DNA of 64,000 bases, from the NCBI GenBank assembly GCA_016201105.1, contig JACQDN010000071.1, positions 1 to 64,000 of the forward strand. The letters run 5' to 3'. This document shows, piece by piece, positions 1-57,856 of the stretch. Origin of the DNA: Pseudomonadota bacterium. GTDB lineage: Bacteria; Pseudomonadota; Alphaproteobacteria; Micropepsales; Micropepsaceae. A program made the translations under genes and the position numbers. Numbering within the stretch: position 1 is the first letter of the stretch; each line of letters starts with the position of its first letter. The notes under the pieces are model-generated. The model had not been told where the DNA came from. It worked only from the letters and a program-made list of their open reading frames with translations, and searched no databases.

Positions 1-12
1 CCACCCTCCCTC
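1..12. repeat. Left half of a palindromic repeat split by the IS
   Basis: These 12 bases (ccaccctccctc) are the left half of a palindrome whose right half (gggagggtag) lies at 1681-1690. Joined, the halves reproduce, over 20 bases, the palindrome at 6241-6260. The repeat was therefore intact before the insertion element entered. It sits just 3' of phoB and may have acted as its terminator. Confidence 0.7.
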
Positions 13-464
13 ACATGAGGGTTAGGTAGTCAAGCTAGTGGATAGCAACAAGTTTGCAGCTTTGTTTGCCCGCGAAGGATCGCCTTTTCGTCCCGACCAG
101 AGTTTGGAGCAGCGCCGCGCGCAGGCGCGGTCAAGGATGGCGCAGCCACCGGCGAAGCCGGCGCGGAACGCGTCCTTGACGGTGCCGAGCACGGCGCGAA
201 GCTTTCAAGGTCGAGACGAGGTTGCTCTGTTTCGTCGATCCTGGGCAGGAGTGCGAGCCCTTTATGAAAGCAGCCTGACGCTGCATCACCTCACATCCGG
301 TCGCCGCACTGGCGGCGATACCACAATCCTTCATGCTTGAAGTCGTCGGGCTCGGCAGATGGAGACCAATCTCGGAGAGCGGCATTGCCAGCCATAGGAG
401 GGTACGGTCCATCCACCCGGATCGACGAAGCTGATCGGGCCTCGTCGAGTGCGTTTGTTCTGCC
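13..464 (-). other. Structured noncoding end of the IS, candidate guide RNA region
   Basis: This 452-base stretch between the transposase stop and the left IS end has no convincing gene; the reading frame at 38-340 resembles nothing I know. It holds two strong hairpins: TCGCCGC/GCGGCGA at 301-318, and a larger structure closed by GTCAAGGA (130-137) with TCCTTGAC (173-180) that encloses CCGGC-GAA-GCCGG (149-161). IS110-family elements encode a bridge RNA in a noncoding end, and in the IS1111 group it lies 3' of the transposase. Position and structure fit, but the guide loops were not identified. Confidence 0.4.
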
Positions 465-1598
465 TTAAGTGGTTTTCAACTGAGCTCCTTCGGGCACCAG
501 GCCTTCGCCGACATAGTGCCACAGTGCCACCACAAGCTTGCGCGCCAGAGCAACGATGGCGATGCGCCGCACGCGGCCGCGCGCCTGGCCGACACGCTCG
601 ACGAACCATCGGCTGAACTGCGATTGCGGCTGATGGCGCAGCCATAACCAAGCCAGTTCGATCATCGTCCGCCGCAAGCGTGGATTGCCGGCCTTGGAGA
701 TGCCTTGCTCGCGCCTCAGGCTGCCGCTCTGCCACGGTGTCGGTGCAAGTCCGGCATAGGCCGCCAGCTGTCTTCGGTTGGCGAAGTCCCGGTAGAACCC
801 TTCCAGCCACAGCGTGGCGGCAAATTCCGGACCGATGCCTTTGAGCCTGAGAAGCAGCGCGGCTGTTTGGTTCTGCGCCACCTGCTCGGCGCGTTCGGCT
901 TCGAGCTTCTTGATCTGGGTCATCAGGATTTCGAGGCGTTCGAGCATGCGCTCGATCTCGCTCTTCAGCCTGGCCGGCATAGCTCGCCCGTCGCCGGTCT
1001 GAAGCCGTTGCAGCCTCTTGTGCCGGTCGCGCTTGAGCGGATCGTAGAGGCAGATCCCCTGGCTGGCCAAAAGACCGCGGATGCGATTGCTCAACCGCGT
1101 GCGTTCTTTGATCAGGCTCTGGCGCTCGCGCGTCAGACGCCGGCGGTCCTCTTCTTCGGCACTGGGCGGGCGCACCATCGAACACACGCGCGGCTCGCCA
1201 CGCAGCCATGCCAGCAATGTCCGCAGCAAGGCCTCCACGTCGATCTTGTCGCTCTTGGCGCGCCGCGCACGGCGCGATACCGCGATCGAAGCCGCATCCA
1301 CCACATGGCTTTCGATCCCATGAGCTTTCAGAAGACGATCCAGCCAAAAACCGTCCAGCCCGGCCTCCTGGATCGTGATCAGCCTCATCGCCTCGCCACA
1401 CGCTTTCTCCGCATGGGCTCGAAGCCGCTGTAAAAGCGCCAAAAGGCCCGGCCCGTCACCCGCTTCCAGGCGGTGTTTCGACATCTTCTCGCTGCCCGGC
1501 GACAGCGATGCCACCAGCCATTGCGAACAACTCAGTTCCAACGATACGCAGATTGCGCCATCATGCGTGCGGATGGCGGCCGCTTGAGTGTGTGACAT
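465..1598 (-). CDS. IS110-family transposase (recombinase)
   Basis: A 377-residue transposase, full length for the family. The N-terminal RuvC-like DEDD domain shows E21 (in VSLELS), E78, D117 and D120; the first acidic position is Glu where most relatives have Asp. A helical, charged middle (about 130-250) leads to the C-terminal IS116/IS110/IS902 domain with a GIGPEFAATL helix-hairpin-like segment and a QSGS motif carrying the candidate nucleophilic serine. The ATG follows a strong AGGAGG site 5 bases upstream. No frameshift or stop is seen, so the element may be active. It cuts and exchanges DNA strands during transposition guided by an element-encoded RNA; that guide mechanism is family knowledge and was not seen here. 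Confidence 0.93.
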   Translation of the reverse strand: MSHTQAAAIRTHDGAICVSLELSCSQWLVASLSPGSEKMSKHRLEAGDGPGLLALLQRLRAHAEKACGEAMRLITIQEAGLDGFWLDRLLKAHGIESHVVDAASIAVSRRARRAKSDKIDVEALLRTLLAWLRGEPRVCSMVRPPSAEEEDRRRLTRERQSLIKERTRLSNRIRGLLASQGICLYDPLKRDRHKRLQRLQTGDGRAMPARLKSEIERMLERLEILMTQIKKLEAERAEQVAQNQTAALLLRLKGIGPEFAATLWLEGFYRDFANRRQLAAYAGLAPTPWQSGSLRREQGISKAGNPRLRRTMIELAWLWLRHQPQSQFSRWFVERVGQARGRVRRIAIVALARKLVVALWHYVGEGLVPEGAQLKTT

Positions 1599-1680
1599 GG
1601 GGTACCTCCTACGGTCGTGCGTGTGAGGCTCGCCAGTCTGCTACCAAATCAGGTCGCCATCCACGCCCTCATAGAATCTC

Positions 1681-1690
1681 GGGAGGGTAG
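1681..1690. repeat. Right half of the interrupted palindromic repeat
   Basis: The sequence gggagggtag completes the palindrome begun at 1-12. It ends 9 bases before the phoB stop codon, so the insertion lies 20 bases downstream of phoB and leaves the gene intact. Confidence 0.65.
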
Positions 1691-4777: not shown

Positions 4778-6238
4778 ATGACAGCCAAGGCCACTGCACA
4801 GGAGCTTACCAGCCTTCGCACCAAACTTTTCTACGGCTTCGGATCGGTCGCCTACGGCGTCAAGGACAACGGCTTTCAGACAATTCTTCTTCCCTTTTAC
4901 AACCTGGTTCTGCATCTGCCGCCGCAATGGGTTGGAGCAGCCATCGCGATCGCGCTGTTCTTCGACGCGTTCATCGATCCCATCATCGGTCACATCTCCG
5001 ACAATCTGAACACCAGATGGGGCCGGCGCCATCCGCTGATGTATCTCGCCGCCCTGCCGGTCTCAATCAGCTATCTGCTGTTGTGGAATCCGCCGCATTG
5101 GTCGAAGGAGTGGCTGTTCGGTTATCTGATCGTCGTCGCCATTATCGTGCGCACCTTCATCACCTTCTACGAAATCCCCAGCTCCGCGCTCGTCCCCGAA
5201 CTCACCGAGAAATATGACGAACGCACATCGTTCCTCAGCTACCGCGTGTTTTTCGCCTGGTATGGCGGCTTGGGGATGTCGGTGCTCGCTTTCATCATCT
5301 TCCTCACAAAAGACGCGACACACAAAGTGGGGCAGCTCAACGAAGCCGGTTACAGCCGCTACGGACTGACCGCGGCGATCGTGATGCTCTGCGCGATCCT
5401 GATTTCCGCCTGGGGCACGCACAAGTTCATTCCATTTTTCCGAAAACCGGAAACGCGACAGATGACGTTGGGCCAGTACGCTCTGGAGATGATCAAGACG
5501 CTCACCAACAGGGCATTCCTCGTCCTCTTCATAGCCGCGCTTTTCTTCAGTCTCGCGACCGGCCTGGTGTTCGCGTTGACGTTCTACATCAACACCTATT
5601 TCTGGCTGCTGCCGAGCAGCACCCTCGGTGTCCTGACTTTGGCAACATTCATCGCCGTGTTCTTTTCCTTCGTAATCGCGGTGCCGCTTTCCAAGCGCTT
5701 CGGTAAAAAGGAATCCGCGATCGGGATGTTCGCACTGGGCGCCGCGATTTCCGTCCTGCCGCTCGTGCTGGGGCTGATGGGTGTACTGTCGCCCGGAGCC
5801 TCATACCTCGTGCCGCTGCTGTTCGTTTTCGCAGCCGTCGGCGGATCGCTTACGATCGGCAGCTCGATCATGATCGTCTCCATGATCGCCGATGTGGTGG
5901 AGGACAGTGAGCTGAGGACGGGCCGGCGCTCCGAAGGGCTATTCTTCGCCGGCAACAGTTTCATTCAGAAGTCGGCGTCCGGACTTGGCCTGTTCGGCTC
6001 GGGCCTGGTTCTGTGGGTGGTAGGTTTTCCCGTCGATGCGAAACCGGGCGCGGTCGATCCTGCGATCGTGCACAATTTCGCGCTTACCTATCTGGTGATC
6101 GTCCTGGTTCTCTACGGCATCGGTTTCTTGATCCTCGGCCAGTTCCCCATCTCGCGGGCCAGCCATGAAGAGAATGTGCGAAGGCTGGCCGGCGAAGTGG
6201 CGGTGGCGGGAGAGGGGCCACCGGCGCCGACGGTTTGA
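4778..6238 (+). CDS. GPH-family (MelB-like) sugar/cation symporter
   Basis: A 486-residue carrier with about 12 transmembrane helices. The start (FYGFGSVAYGVKDN) and the cytoplasmic loop with RWGRRHPLMY after an ISDNLNTR segment are typical of the glycoside-pentoside-hexuronide family within the major facilitator superfamily. Members import melibiose, xylosides or glucuronides with Na+ or H+. A second loop motif GRRSEGLFFAGNSFIQK, also typical, sits near residue 385. It is divergent from phoR and has no sugar-degrading neighbour, so the substrate is unknown; related proteins also carry other small molecules. Confidence 0.85.
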   Translation: MTAKATAQELTSLRTKLFYGFGSVAYGVKDNGFQTILLPFYNLVLHLPPQWVGAAIAIALFFDAFIDPIIGHISDNLNTRWGRRHPLMYLAALPVSISYLLLWNPPHWSKEWLFGYLIVVAIIVRTFITFYEIPSSALVPELTEKYDERTSFLSYRVFFAWYGGLGMSVLAFIIFLTKDATHKVGQLNEAGYSRYGLTAAIVMLCAILISAWGTHKFIPFFRKPETRQMTLGQYALEMIKTLTNRAFLVLFIAALFFSLATGLVFALTFYINTYFWLLPSSTLGVLTLATFIAVFFSFVIAVPLSKRFGKKESAIGMFALGAAISVLPLVLGLMGVLSPGASYLVPLLFVFAAVGGSLTIGSSIMIVSMIADVVEDSELRTGRRSEGLFFAGNSFIQKSASGLGLFGSGLVLWVVGFPVDAKPGAVDPAIVHNFALTYLVIVLVLYGIGFLILGQFPISRASHEENVRRLAGEVAVAGEGPPAPTV

Positions 6239-6240
6239 AC

Positions 6241-6387
6241 CCACCCTCCCTCGGGAGGGTCGAAGCGCGCAGCGCTTCGGGGAGGATTTGGAAGGAGAGT
6301 CGACCTGCGATTTTCCGTCCGCGTCCTCCCCGAAAAACTCACTCGCTGGCGCTCGCGAATTTTTCGACCCTCCCAAGGGAGGGTGGG
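6241..6387. repeat. Composite palindromic repeat, copy 1
   Basis: The element is framed by two CACCCTCCC/GGGAGGGT palindromes (6241-6260 and 6367-6387). Inside lie a left hairpin CGAAGCGC-gca-GCGCTTCG (6261-6279), a central inverted repeat CGGGGAGGA (6278-6286) with TCCTCCCCG (6324-6332), and a right hairpin with stem CGAAAAA (6331-6337) and TTTTTCG (6360-6366). The same order of parts is found at 26860-27050 with different stem sequences. It separates two convergent genes and could terminate both. Confidence 0.8.
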
Positions 6388-6388
6388 T

Positions 6389-8134
6389 TTAGCCTGCAAA
6401 AATCTTCTTCAATTCCGTCTTGAGGATTTTGCCGCTGGCGTTGCGCGGCAGGGTTTCGGGCCAGAACACGACCTTCACCGGCACCTTGAAGGCGGCGAGC
6501 TTGCCGGCGACGAACTGGCGAAGCTCTTCTTCGGTCGTGTGCATGCCGGGCTTGAGATGCACCACCGCGCCGGGCTCTTCGCCCAGCGTCTTGTGCGGCA
6601 CGGCGACGAGGGCCGCATCCATCACGGCGGGATGTTCGTAGAGGACGTTCTCCACTTCGATGCAGTAGATGTTCTCGCCGCCGCGGATCAGCATGTCCTT
6701 GGCGCGGTCGATGATGAAGCAGAAGCCTTCGTCGTCGAGACGCGCGAGATCGCCGGTCTTCACCCAGCCGTCCTCGAAGGTGGCGGCGGTGGCTTCCGGC
6801 TTGTTCCAATAGCCTTTGACGATGTTGGGACCGCGGGCCCACAGCTCGCCCACTTCGCCGATGGGCAATTCCTTGTCGCCTTCGATCGACATGATCTTGA
6901 GATCGCAAACGGCCACGGCCGGGCCGCAGGACGACGGGCGGTTCTCGTAATCTTCCGCCGAATGGGTTGTGCAGGTGGCCGAGGTTTCCGTCATACCCCA
7001 GCCGTTGCCGGGCAGCGATTTGGGGAAGGTCTCGACGATCTTCTTCACCAGCTCCGGCGCCGACGGTGCACCGCCATAGGCGACGCTTTCGAGCGAGGAG
7101 AGATCGTATTTCGCGCGCGCAGGATGCTCGATCAACTGCCAGGCGATGGTCGGCACGCCGCCTGCGCTGTTGATCTTCTCGCGCTCGATCAGCTGCATGG
7201 CGACTTCGGGGTCCCATTTGCGCATCAGCACGATCTTGCCGCCAGCGATCAGCGTGGGGTTGAGAACGGCGAAGCAACCGGTGGCGTGAAAGAACGGCAC
7301 CGACAGCAGCGTGCAGCGCTGCGGTGCGGTGAACGGATCGAGCACGGGAACGTCTTCGCCGCGACGCAGGAAATTTCGCGCGATCGCCGAACCGGAGGCG
7401 AAGATGTTCGAATTCATGTTGCGGTGGGTACCGAGGGCGCCCTTCGGCTTTCCCGTCGTGCCGGAGGTGTAGAGGATCGTCGCGTCGTCATCGGTGTCGA
7501 GCTTCACATCCGGCATCACGGCATCGGGCAATTTCATCCAGTCGTTGACCAGGCCCAGCACGTCTTCAAGACGCTTGACGATCGGATTGGGCAAATCATC
7601 GGCATAGCGGCTGACATAGACGCGTTTGAGATCGGGACAATTCACAAGATGTTCGGCGATGCGCTCCAGGCGCTCCGCATCGACGATCGCGACACTCGAT
7701 CCCGAATCGACGAGGCCATATTCCAATTCCGGTCCCGTCCACCATGCGTTCAGCGGGGTCACGATGGCGCCGATGATCGCCGCGCCGTAAAACGCGACCG
7801 GCCATTCGGGAAGGTTGCGCATGATGACGGCGACGCGGTCACCTTTCTCCACGCCTTGCTTTTGCAGTTCCTGGGCGAAGGCGATCGTGGCGCGGAAGAA
7901 ACTCTCAAACGTCGTGCGATCGTTCTCATAGACGATCAAGTCGCGTTGCCCGTACACGCGGCTTACCGCCAGCACTTCGCGCATCGTCGGCGGCGCGTTC
8001 TTCCACACCCGCGTCTTCACCCCGCGGATCATCACTTCATCCATTTCGAAGCGCGAGCCGGGTGCGGTGAGCGCCCGATGGGCTTCGGCCAGCGACATCG
8101 CCGGCCAATGTGGTTTCCTGTTCGCCTCGTTCAT
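6389..8134 (-). CDS. Fatty-acyl-CoA synthetase (AMP-forming)
   Basis: A 581-residue adenylate-forming enzyme. The phosphate-binding loop YTSGTTGKPKG is at about 222-232, followed by GWGMTETSATC, GELWARGPNIVKGYW, KTGDLARLDDEGF and the C-terminal lysine region (SGKILKTELKK). It activates a carboxylic acid, probably a medium or long fatty acid, with ATP and CoA. The ATG at 8134 was preferred over one 54 bases upstream because it follows a GCAGGTCGAG stretch and the upstream one has no ribosome site. The acyl-CoA dehydrogenase just upstream on the same strand points to a shared lipid-degradation role. Confidence 0.9.
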   Translation of the reverse strand: MNEANRKPHWPAMSLAEAHRALTAPGSRFEMDEVMIRGVKTRVWKNAPPTMREVLAVSRVYGQRDLIVYENDRTTFESFFRATIAFAQELQKQGVEKGDRVAVIMRNLPEWPVAFYGAAIIGAIVTPLNAWWTGPELEYGLVDSGSSVAIVDAERLERIAEHLVNCPDLKRVYVSRYADDLPNPIVKRLEDVLGLVNDWMKLPDAVMPDVKLDTDDDATILYTSGTTGKPKGALGTHRNMNSNIFASGSAIARNFLRRGEDVPVLDPFTAPQRCTLLSVPFFHATGCFAVLNPTLIAGGKIVLMRKWDPEVAMQLIEREKINSAGGVPTIAWQLIEHPARAKYDLSSLESVAYGGAPSAPELVKKIVETFPKSLPGNGWGMTETSATCTTHSAEDYENRPSSCGPAVAVCDLKIMSIEGDKELPIGEVGELWARGPNIVKGYWNKPEATAATFEDGWVKTGDLARLDDEGFCFIIDRAKDMLIRGGENIYCIEVENVLYEHPAVMDAALVAVPHKTLGEEPGAVVHLKPGMHTTEEELRQFVAGKLAAFKVPVKVVFWPETLPRNASGKILKTELKKIFAG

Positions 8135-26859: not shown

Positions 26860-27050
26860 CACCCTCCCCTTGAGGGAGGGTCGAAATTTGCGAAGCGCAG
26901 CGTAGCAAATTTCGGGGAGGGGTCATGCCGTGACACACAAAATCACTCGCTCGGCCGAAAATTGTTCGCTTGTTTTCGAGGGCGCGGCATGACCCCTCCC
27001 CGAACGATTTCGCTTCGCTCAATCGTTCGACCCTCCCTCAGGGGGAGGGT
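26860..27050. repeat. Composite palindromic repeat, copy 2
   Basis: The parts occur in the same order as in the copy at 6241-6387. A terminal palindrome (26860-26881) is followed by a left hairpin CGAAATTTGC/GCAAATTTCG (26882-26914), then an 18-base central inverted repeat (26913-26930 with 26985-27002) around a 54-base loop, a right hairpin CGAACGATT/AATCGTTCG (27001-27029) and the second terminal palindrome (27030-27050). The element fills the gap between erpA and xthA and begins 10 bases from the xthA start. Confidence 0.85.
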
Positions 27051-57584: not shown

Positions 57585-57856
57585 CCGCCCGCCAGCGCAT
57601 TGGTGACGATGACTTCGTCGCCGTCCCTCACATGATGGGTCGCCGCGTCTTTTGCCCGCACCAGCGTCCCTTCATGCAGGAAGACGATGTTGTGGCGGAT
57701 GGCGCCGCGTTCGTCGCGGAAGTGCAGGCTCAGCGCCGGATGTTTGGCGGCGAGATCCAAGAGCAGGGCGCCGATGGTGGCGCCGTCTGCTTCGACGAAT
57801 TTGTTGTCGCCCATCACGAACCGCAATACGGGGGGAAGCTGCACGCGCACTGTCAC
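57581..57856 (-). CDS. MoaD/ThiS-type ubiquitin-like protein
   Basis: A 91-residue beta-grasp protein that ends in Gly-Gly (NALAGG), the tail that is adenylated and thiocarboxylated in MoaD and ThiS. GDEVIVTNALAGG and ATIGALLLDLAAKHPAL match the family. It is not near moaE, moaC or thi genes, so a sulfur-carrier or protein-tag role separate from molybdopterin is likely. The GTG overlaps the propeller gene stop (GTGA) and its stop overlaps the globin ATG. Confidence 0.88.
   Translation of the reverse strand: MTVRVQLPPVLRFVMGDNKFVEADGATIGALLLDLAAKHPALSLHFRDERGAIRHNIVFLHEGTLVRAKDAATHHVRDGDEVIVTNALAGG

Follow-up and report, generated by a model that had tools for sequence, protein, structure and literature searches.

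An IS1111-type insertion sequence of a Micropepsaceae bacterium that very probably reads a genome-wide palindromic repeat through a predicted guide RNA

The stretch of DNA analyzed here, referred to as the window, comprises positions 1 to 64,000 of contig JACQDN010000071.1 (C18 below) from a Pseudomonadota bacterium of the family Micropepsaceae (assembly GCA_016201105.1), and it opens with an insertion sequence (IS) seated inside a palindromic repeat. The element belongs to the IS1111 type within the IS110 family and has its transposase gene on the minus strand. Its target is very probably a genome-wide palindrome, similar to repetitive extragenic palindromic (REP) sequences, that is read by a guide RNA encoded in the element. 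This predicted guide mechanism is well supported by the sequence and can be read from it: two predicted target guides correspond to the halves of the target and a predicted donor guide to the right end of the element, and the guides co-vary with these counterparts across relatives. Joining positions 1-12 to 1681-1688 yields CCACCCTCCCTCGGGAGGGT, identical over 20 of 20 bases to the intact repeat at 6241-6260. The initial annotation had carried this join through to 1690; the 20-base identity stands, whereas bases 1689-1690 (ag) mismatch. Its observation that the IS lies inside a palindrome is confirmed and is no chance effect, and its proposal that the element recognizes the local repeat family as its target is supported, as all of the junctions found fall in the palindrome and the predicted guide RNA fits both halves. 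Coordinates are collected in Table 1.

Table 1. Coordinates of the element, its predicted RNA and the repeats in the window
Feature	Position	Strand	Remarks
Left half of split palindrome, core CT at 10-11	1..11	.	Begins at contig end; 12 bases alike at four left junctions
Complete IS1111-type element, 1668 bp	12..1679	-	Gene orientation: left end 1679, right end 12
3-bp extension CAC	12-14		Window orientation
Subterminal inverted repeat (sTIR) ATGAGGG	15..21	.	Right end in gene orientation
Predicted seekRNA/bridge RNA core, 3' noncoding region	286..415	-	Conserved scaffold, hypervariable guide columns, 22 aligned elements
Predicted donor guide, RNA 5'-AUGUGAG	290..296	-	Identical to the element's right end ATGTGAG
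Predicted left-target guide, RNA 5'-CUCUCCGAG	371..379	-	In the sense of left target CCTCCCGAG, core AG included
Predicted right-target guide, RNA 5'-UACCCUCCUA	395..404	-	Complementary to right target half GGAGGGT
Transposase, 377 aa, IS110 family	465..1598	-	DEDD_Tnp_IS110 and Transposase_20 domains
sTIR CCCTCAT	1666..1672	.	Left end in gene orientation
7-bp extension AGAATCT	1673-1679		Window orientation
Core CT (1678-1679, counted as IS end) and right palindrome half (1680-1688)	1678..1688	.
Intact two-palindrome repeat, similar to a bacterial interspersed mosaic element (BIME)	6238..6389	.	Inverted arms 6238-6264 / 6363-6389, 96% complementary
Second intact two-palindrome repeat, other centre types	26861..27050	.	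Contains the predicted targets of ranks 3 and 4

A search with positions 1-1690 matched five places: the window, three further left ends (contigs C29, C64 and C71) and one further right end (C14), and all five matches include flank letters. The matches on C29, C64, C71 and C14 each sit at a contig end, as is typical when a short-read assembly contains a multi-copy element. A search with junction patterns, which themselves contain flank letters, returned four exact left junctions (C18, C29, C64 and C71) and two exact right junctions (C18 and C14); copies that overlap contig ends by just a few dozen bases may escape it. Half-palindromes, anticipated in the initial annotation for the flanks of other copies, are present at all four left and both right junctions. 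The left flanks on C29, C64 and C71 are unlike sequences that each end in CCACCCTCCCTC, and both right flanks start with CGGGAGGGT and then diverge; C14 runs on as a complete repeat beyond its right junction. Because three different left flanks are seen, the genome contains at least three copies of the element. An additional left match at 57621-57638 carries two mismatches and is not a copy. The partner contig of C14 (C29 or C71) was sought through gene order but not found: homologues of the C29, C71 and C64 proteins tried are absent from all 17 loci of relatives compared around the C14 gene.

The pattern ACCCTCCC-N1-5-GGGAGGGT occurs in 287 copies in the 3.85-Mb genome, compared with none for the reversed control pattern. 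The exact TC/GA centre used by the element is found in 75 of the 287, where the 18-bp palindrome is uninterrupted. Within the genus, 38 of 60 genomes surveyed carry such palindromes, this genome with its 287 included, and the others with copies have from 1 to 145. Both repeat units in the window consist of two oppositely oriented palindromes, the layout of a BIME, and in copy number and pairing the family is REP/BIME-like. Intergenic placement was observed at the sites read, as distinct from a genome-wide count. The unit at 26861-27050 has five-base centres (CTTGA and TCAGG) instead of TC/GA, such that centre types coexist in one genome. Among the own-genome sites read for polarity (loci L006-L020 and L117-L141), the TC/GA centre has one polarity relative to the outer and inner sides of the repeat in 34 of 41 entries, 7 have like sides, and 0 have the opposite polarity.

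An alignment of 22 elements reveals a conserved scaffold around two hypervariable blocks in the noncoding region downstream of the transposase gene. The right-target guide of the present element forms 7 of 7 pairs with its target half and ranks first of 25. The right-target guide precedes the left-target guide, so that the complement of the top strand comes first, as described for IS1111-type seekRNAs, in which this complement lies 5' of the match to the bottom strand (PMC11187229; this paper and the others cited below are represented by excerpts). The two guides are alike (ACCCUCC, CUCUCCG) because the target is palindromic; it is the most palindromic of the 25 targets compared. In 32 of 37 elements, a set that retains closely related members, the RNA region contains a further copy of the right end's three-base extension with the core, and six extension types are represented. 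Of the five exceptions, three differ in the second core base only, one is L064, whose right end was set by hand, and one yielded no motif.

The relatives behind these comparisons comprise 27 of the 29 loci found in a genome scan (L078 and L079 were left out), 18 plasmid loci from 60 matches listed, L022 and L023, which together with the present element make 48 loci. Of the 48, 40 have a located left end and 38 a located right end; hand-typed motifs supplied one of these left ends and four of the right ends. For several relatives, sTIR matching by itself misplaced the right end, and end motifs were used instead. The anchored guide test takes elements with both ends located and omits L022, L023, L056, L058, L074 and L076, which are unclear or truncated; its 31 elements were reduced to 25 by removal of the duplicate targets L052, L060, L062, L063, L075 and L146, with L059 and L064 both retained despite their common target. 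The 22-element RNA alignment is this set minus L069, L071 and L072. Scored against the elements' own flanks, the guides reach 114.6 on the left, compared with 53.5 ± 5.8 when permuted, and 157.0 on the right, compared with 112.7 ± 3.7, and 0 of 100,000 permutations are as high for the left, the right or the sum. The own target ranks first in 21 of the 25 elements, the present one among them; L053, L059 and L064 rank it second, and L142 ranks it 13th. An unanchored version in which the guide position is free (32 elements minus L052, L060, L062, L063, L075, L145 and L146) gives the same answer more weakly, with a permutation fraction of 0.0001 for the left and 0 of 20,000 for the right.

The guides also single out the repeats in the window. 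With guide position and length fixed beforehand from the alignment, and the target already known, the two guides and the AG core rank the four palindromes of the window 1 to 4 among 6,379 AG sites, and the palindrome at 6243-6260 is the best predicted target. Shuffled guides place all four on top in 41 of 5,000 trials, and the guides of the other elements place any of the four in their top 4 in 0 of 24 cases. Shuffled guides score in part because the guides are C-rich like the repeat; base composition therefore helps but does not explain the ranking.

A secondary structure named for the RNA region has 92% of its alignment cells paired and 31 compensatory cells, compared with 11.8 in shuffles, and 0 of 500 shuffles are as high for pairing, compensatory cells or covariation score. 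Sliding the partners by 1-3 columns lowers the pairing to 28-57%. In this modeled structure, the two target guides would occupy the two strands of one internal loop. The guides of the IS621 target loop are likewise found on two strands of one internal loop. No Rfam match was found up to an E-value of 0.5 within positions 1-1800.

Several observations weigh against a guide RNA reading the palindrome. The left guide fits imperfectly, having two G-U pairs and a mismatch (score 4.2 of 6, second of 25), L142 is a misfit with its own target at rank 13 of 25, and the free search put the best left match of the present element elsewhere in the noncoding region, at rank 10 of 25. Guide positions and lengths were fixed after the sequences had been viewed, and 5 of 25 anchors and 3 of 25 right ends in the test were set by hand. 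In the window, shuffled guides rank one of the four palindromes first in 271 of 5,000 trials, and the top match of 16 of 40 shuffled guides falls inside a palindrome in any register. Similarly, the RNA structure was named after the columns had been scanned for pairing, its both-side-changed pairs and further pair types are reached by 6 and 4 of 500 shuffles, respectively, the fold of the single sequence does not exceed shuffles in stability (z 0.41), and RNAalifold alone gave 10 pairs only. If the RNA match were a by-product, the palindrome might be recognized by the transposase itself, in the manner of a dimeric DNA-binding protein. That proteins recognize REPs had been proposed when guide RNAs were not yet known, in part by comparison with IS3 elements (PMC1525189), and a target more palindromic than those of the other elements compared would suit a symmetric protein. 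Guide-flank matching nevertheless also holds for targets that are less palindromic around the core (best arm score of at most 0.75, compared with 0.89 here), the guides predict the four window palindromes as their best sites, and the IS1111 and IS110 elements that have been studied use RNA guides (PMC11187229, PMC11208160); recognition by the protein is accordingly considered very unlikely.

The junctions themselves allow two other readings. The half-palindromes could belong to the element, as long REP-like ends, rather than to a broken target, and since the copies found are all flanked by identical bases, 11 on the left and 9 on the right, the own-genome copies alone cannot exclude this. The exact 18-bp palindrome nevertheless stands uninterrupted at 75 places in the genome, related elements combine this end layout (3-bp and 7-bp extensions beside the sTIRs) with different flanks, and the flanks diverge directly outside the palindrome, which leaves this explanation barely credible. 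The other reading concerns the assembly: the window starts at the first base of C18, whose initial 139-141 bases overlap with other contigs, such that the junction at 1-12 might be an artefact, a contig edge collapsed from other copies, with the copy beside the phoB gene seated elsewhere. Bases 1-12, which are common to all of the left-end contigs, may on their own be a collapsed repeat consensus, and because position 1 is a contig end they do not alone show the flank of this copy. The right junction at 1678-1688, by comparison, lies inside the contig with the right half-palindrome next to phoB, and gene order links C64, which has the same left half at its end, to phoB. Thus, an artefact is improbable, and insertion into a REP-like palindrome read by an encoded guide RNA remains the preferred explanation.

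The link to C64 rests on a comparison of 29 phoB loci, fetched from among 59 relatives that match the phoB query; the nearest of these are approximately 84% identical. Pfam shows phoB to encode a response regulator of that domain type, and the gene name is taken from the initial annotation. C64 ends in a glutathione peroxidase gene (Pfam GSHPx) and in CCACCCTCCCTC. A glutathione peroxidase homologue lies within 1.5 kb beside phoB, directed towards it, in 18 of the 29 relatives' loci, whereas homologues of the C29 and C71 proteins tried occur in 0 of 29. C64 is therefore favored, on conserved gene order, as the left neighbour of the phoB copy, and the expected local order is CCACCCTCCCT-IS-CGGGAGGGT between the glutathione peroxidase gene and phoB. 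At the empty site, two convergent genes were most likely separated by one palindrome that may have acted as a terminator. The same repeat in uninterrupted form was found beside phoB in 0 of the 29 relatives' loci within the 1.5 kb examined. Only one locus, L093, has a repeat palindrome in this interval, uninterrupted and of another centre type. In L093 (G047 C1:1993775), CCCTCCC-CTTGA-GGGAGGG stands 14 bp from the phoB match, and the place may attract repeats independently.

The end structure of the element is that of the IS1111 group. The mirrored sTIRs were correctly identified in the initial annotation, and outside them lie, in gene orientation, the extensions AGATTCT (left, 7 bp) and GTG (right, 3 bp), an asymmetry described for IS1111-type elements (PMC11187229). 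At 7 bp the sTIR is short compared with the usual 11-13 bp (PMC11187229), at the lower end of the 7-17-bp range given elsewhere (PMC11208160); the other 24 elements compared have 0-11 matching bases, the value 0 belonging to L064 with its hand-set right end. Noncoding DNA amounts to 453 bp downstream of the transposase gene (12-464) and 81 bp upstream (1599-1679), and a longer downstream region is typical of most IS1111-type elements (PMC11187229). The ends of related elements, where they could be located, read AG-ATxCy-ATG... on the left and TTGAC...CAT-NNN-AG on the right. AG, or CT in window orientation, is present at the left end in 25 of 25 and at the right end in 23 of 25 elements compared, although its presence at both ends is partly by construction, as the end motifs demanded AG or AA. 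The base before AG is the same at both ends in 6 of 25 elements, the present one included, which is approximately the chance level, and the base after AG in 0 of 25. CTC does border both junctions, at 10-12 and 1678-1680, as initially reported. Because neighbouring bases rarely agree between ends, its third letter is taken as coincidental, and a dinucleotide core, CT (AG in gene orientation), is the best reading in place of the CTC-like core first suggested. The core of IS621 is likewise CT (PMC11208158).

By analogy with IS621 and ISEc11, the 3' noncoding guide region would be transcribed, the element would excise as a circle, and the transposase would bind the RNA, which would pair both with the abutted ends and, in gene orientation, with ACCCTCCCG-AG-GGAGGGTGG in the palindrome. 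The circle junction would read ...CCCTCATGTGAGATTCTATGAGGG... in gene orientation, with no further repeat letters. Recombination at the AG/CT core would insert the circle with no net target duplication. Which way round the element inserts would be set by the off-centre core together with the repeat's GA centre, and the preferred TC/GA polarity would keep this orientation fixed. Two sequence motifs at the ends, TTGACT on the right (28-33, minus strand) and GATTCT on the left (1673-1678, minus strand), would stand 17 bp apart in a circle with abutted ends and could form a weak junction promoter; TTGAC recurs at the right ends of relatives, although the end motif demanded TTGAC or TTGAT.

The transposase gives matches over the cut-offs to Pfam PF02371 and PF01548 and to NCBIfam NF033542 (231 bits), in agreement with the IS110-family assignment made at the outset. 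The predicted structure (mean pLDDT 80.9, pTM 0.59) aligns with the ISCro4 and IS621 recombinases with Z-scores of 20.1, 20.0 and 19.6 over 294-297 residues at 20-21% identity, and TIGR-Tas proteins score lower (Z 16.4 and below). The Ser and Gly of the Tnp domain are kept in 37 and 38 of 40 aligned clade sequences, respectively, the rest being gaps; this set of 40 remained after 8 truncated or unclear loci were removed. Residues E78, D117 and D120 correspond to the last three of the four catalytic acids D-E-D-D, and the first is E21. Glu is found at this position in 39 of the 40 clade members (this element included), the other having a gap, and also in L022 and L023, whereas the 25 other IS110 relatives that phmmer found in related genomes have Asp (20) or a gap (5). 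The structural alignments with IS621 start at residue 15 against residue 5, which would place E21 over D11 provided that no gap intervenes. IS621 D11 binds Mg2+, and its mutation abolishes recombination (PMC11208158). The clade-wide catalytic-site Glu is the most unusual detail of the element, and among open-licence PubMed Central papers none containing both 'IS110' and 'EEDD' was found. On balance, the element seems to belong to an 'EEDD' branch of RNA-guided IS110-family recombinases whose ends, guides and targets look active and co-vary.

As to mobility of the repeats themselves, the genome encodes two Y1_Tnp proteins resembling REP-associated tyrosine transposases (RAYTs). A palindrome lies approximately 0.5 kb before the Y1_Tnp match at L161 (G000:C35:16123-16443) and none at L160. 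The L161 gene is a possible mobilizer of the REP family.

The nearest named element among the matches listed is the ISRel9 group of Rhizobium etli and relatives, with approximately 60% transposase identity. The clade relatives share with the present element the AG-ATxCy-ATG ... CAT-NNN-AG end layout and the conserved 3' scaffold, and those compared differ from it in targets and guides. The ISRel9-labelled copy L158 has an unrecognizable right end and falls outside the target test; no paper mentioning ISRel9 was found among open-licence PubMed Central papers. ISEc11, ISPa11 and ISKpn4 are IS1111-type elements with demonstrated seekRNAs (PMC11187229). Similar to these, the present element has a downstream noncoding region, sTIRs with 7- and 3-bp extensions and, in its predicted RNA, the seekRNA guide order, and it differs from them in its shorter sTIR and in using another REP family. 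IS621, an IS110-type element, has a REP target in E. coli and a bridge RNA (PMC11208160, PMC11208158). The present element resembles it in the REP target, the CT core, the predicted two-strand target loop and donor guide, and the predicted recombinase fold (Z 19.6-20.0). Unlike in IS621, the predicted guide RNA region is downstream of the gene, whereas the bridge RNA of the IS110 group is upstream (PMC11208160); in addition, the guide order is reversed and Glu replaces D11.

That IS110-family elements target REPs was reported in 2006, IS621 having been an experimental case before that (PMC1525189); RNA guides of IS1111 and IS110 elements followed in 2024 (PMC11187229, PMC11208160). Copies counted in REPs include ISPa11 (6 of 6), ISPpu9 (7 of 7), ISPpu10 (7 of 7) and ISRm19 (4 of 4) (PMC1525189, the last three from its Table 2); ISPpu9, ISPpu10 and ISRm19 are, like the present element, REP-located members of the IS110 family, in other hosts. 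Both REP targeting and guide RNAs are thus already published, and this element adds another case. What it contributes is that the target of an unstudied IS, and the guide code of an ISRel9-like IS1111 clade, are readable from sequence, and some two dozen natural guide-target pairs form a starting set for programming. The REP palindromes would give the element many landing sites outside genes. The conserved change of Asp to Glu at the catalytic site is a concrete, testable contrast with the IS621 recombinase; if the branch is real and its enzymes work, the metal site of bridge-RNA recombinases would have a natural, seemingly unstudied alternative form.

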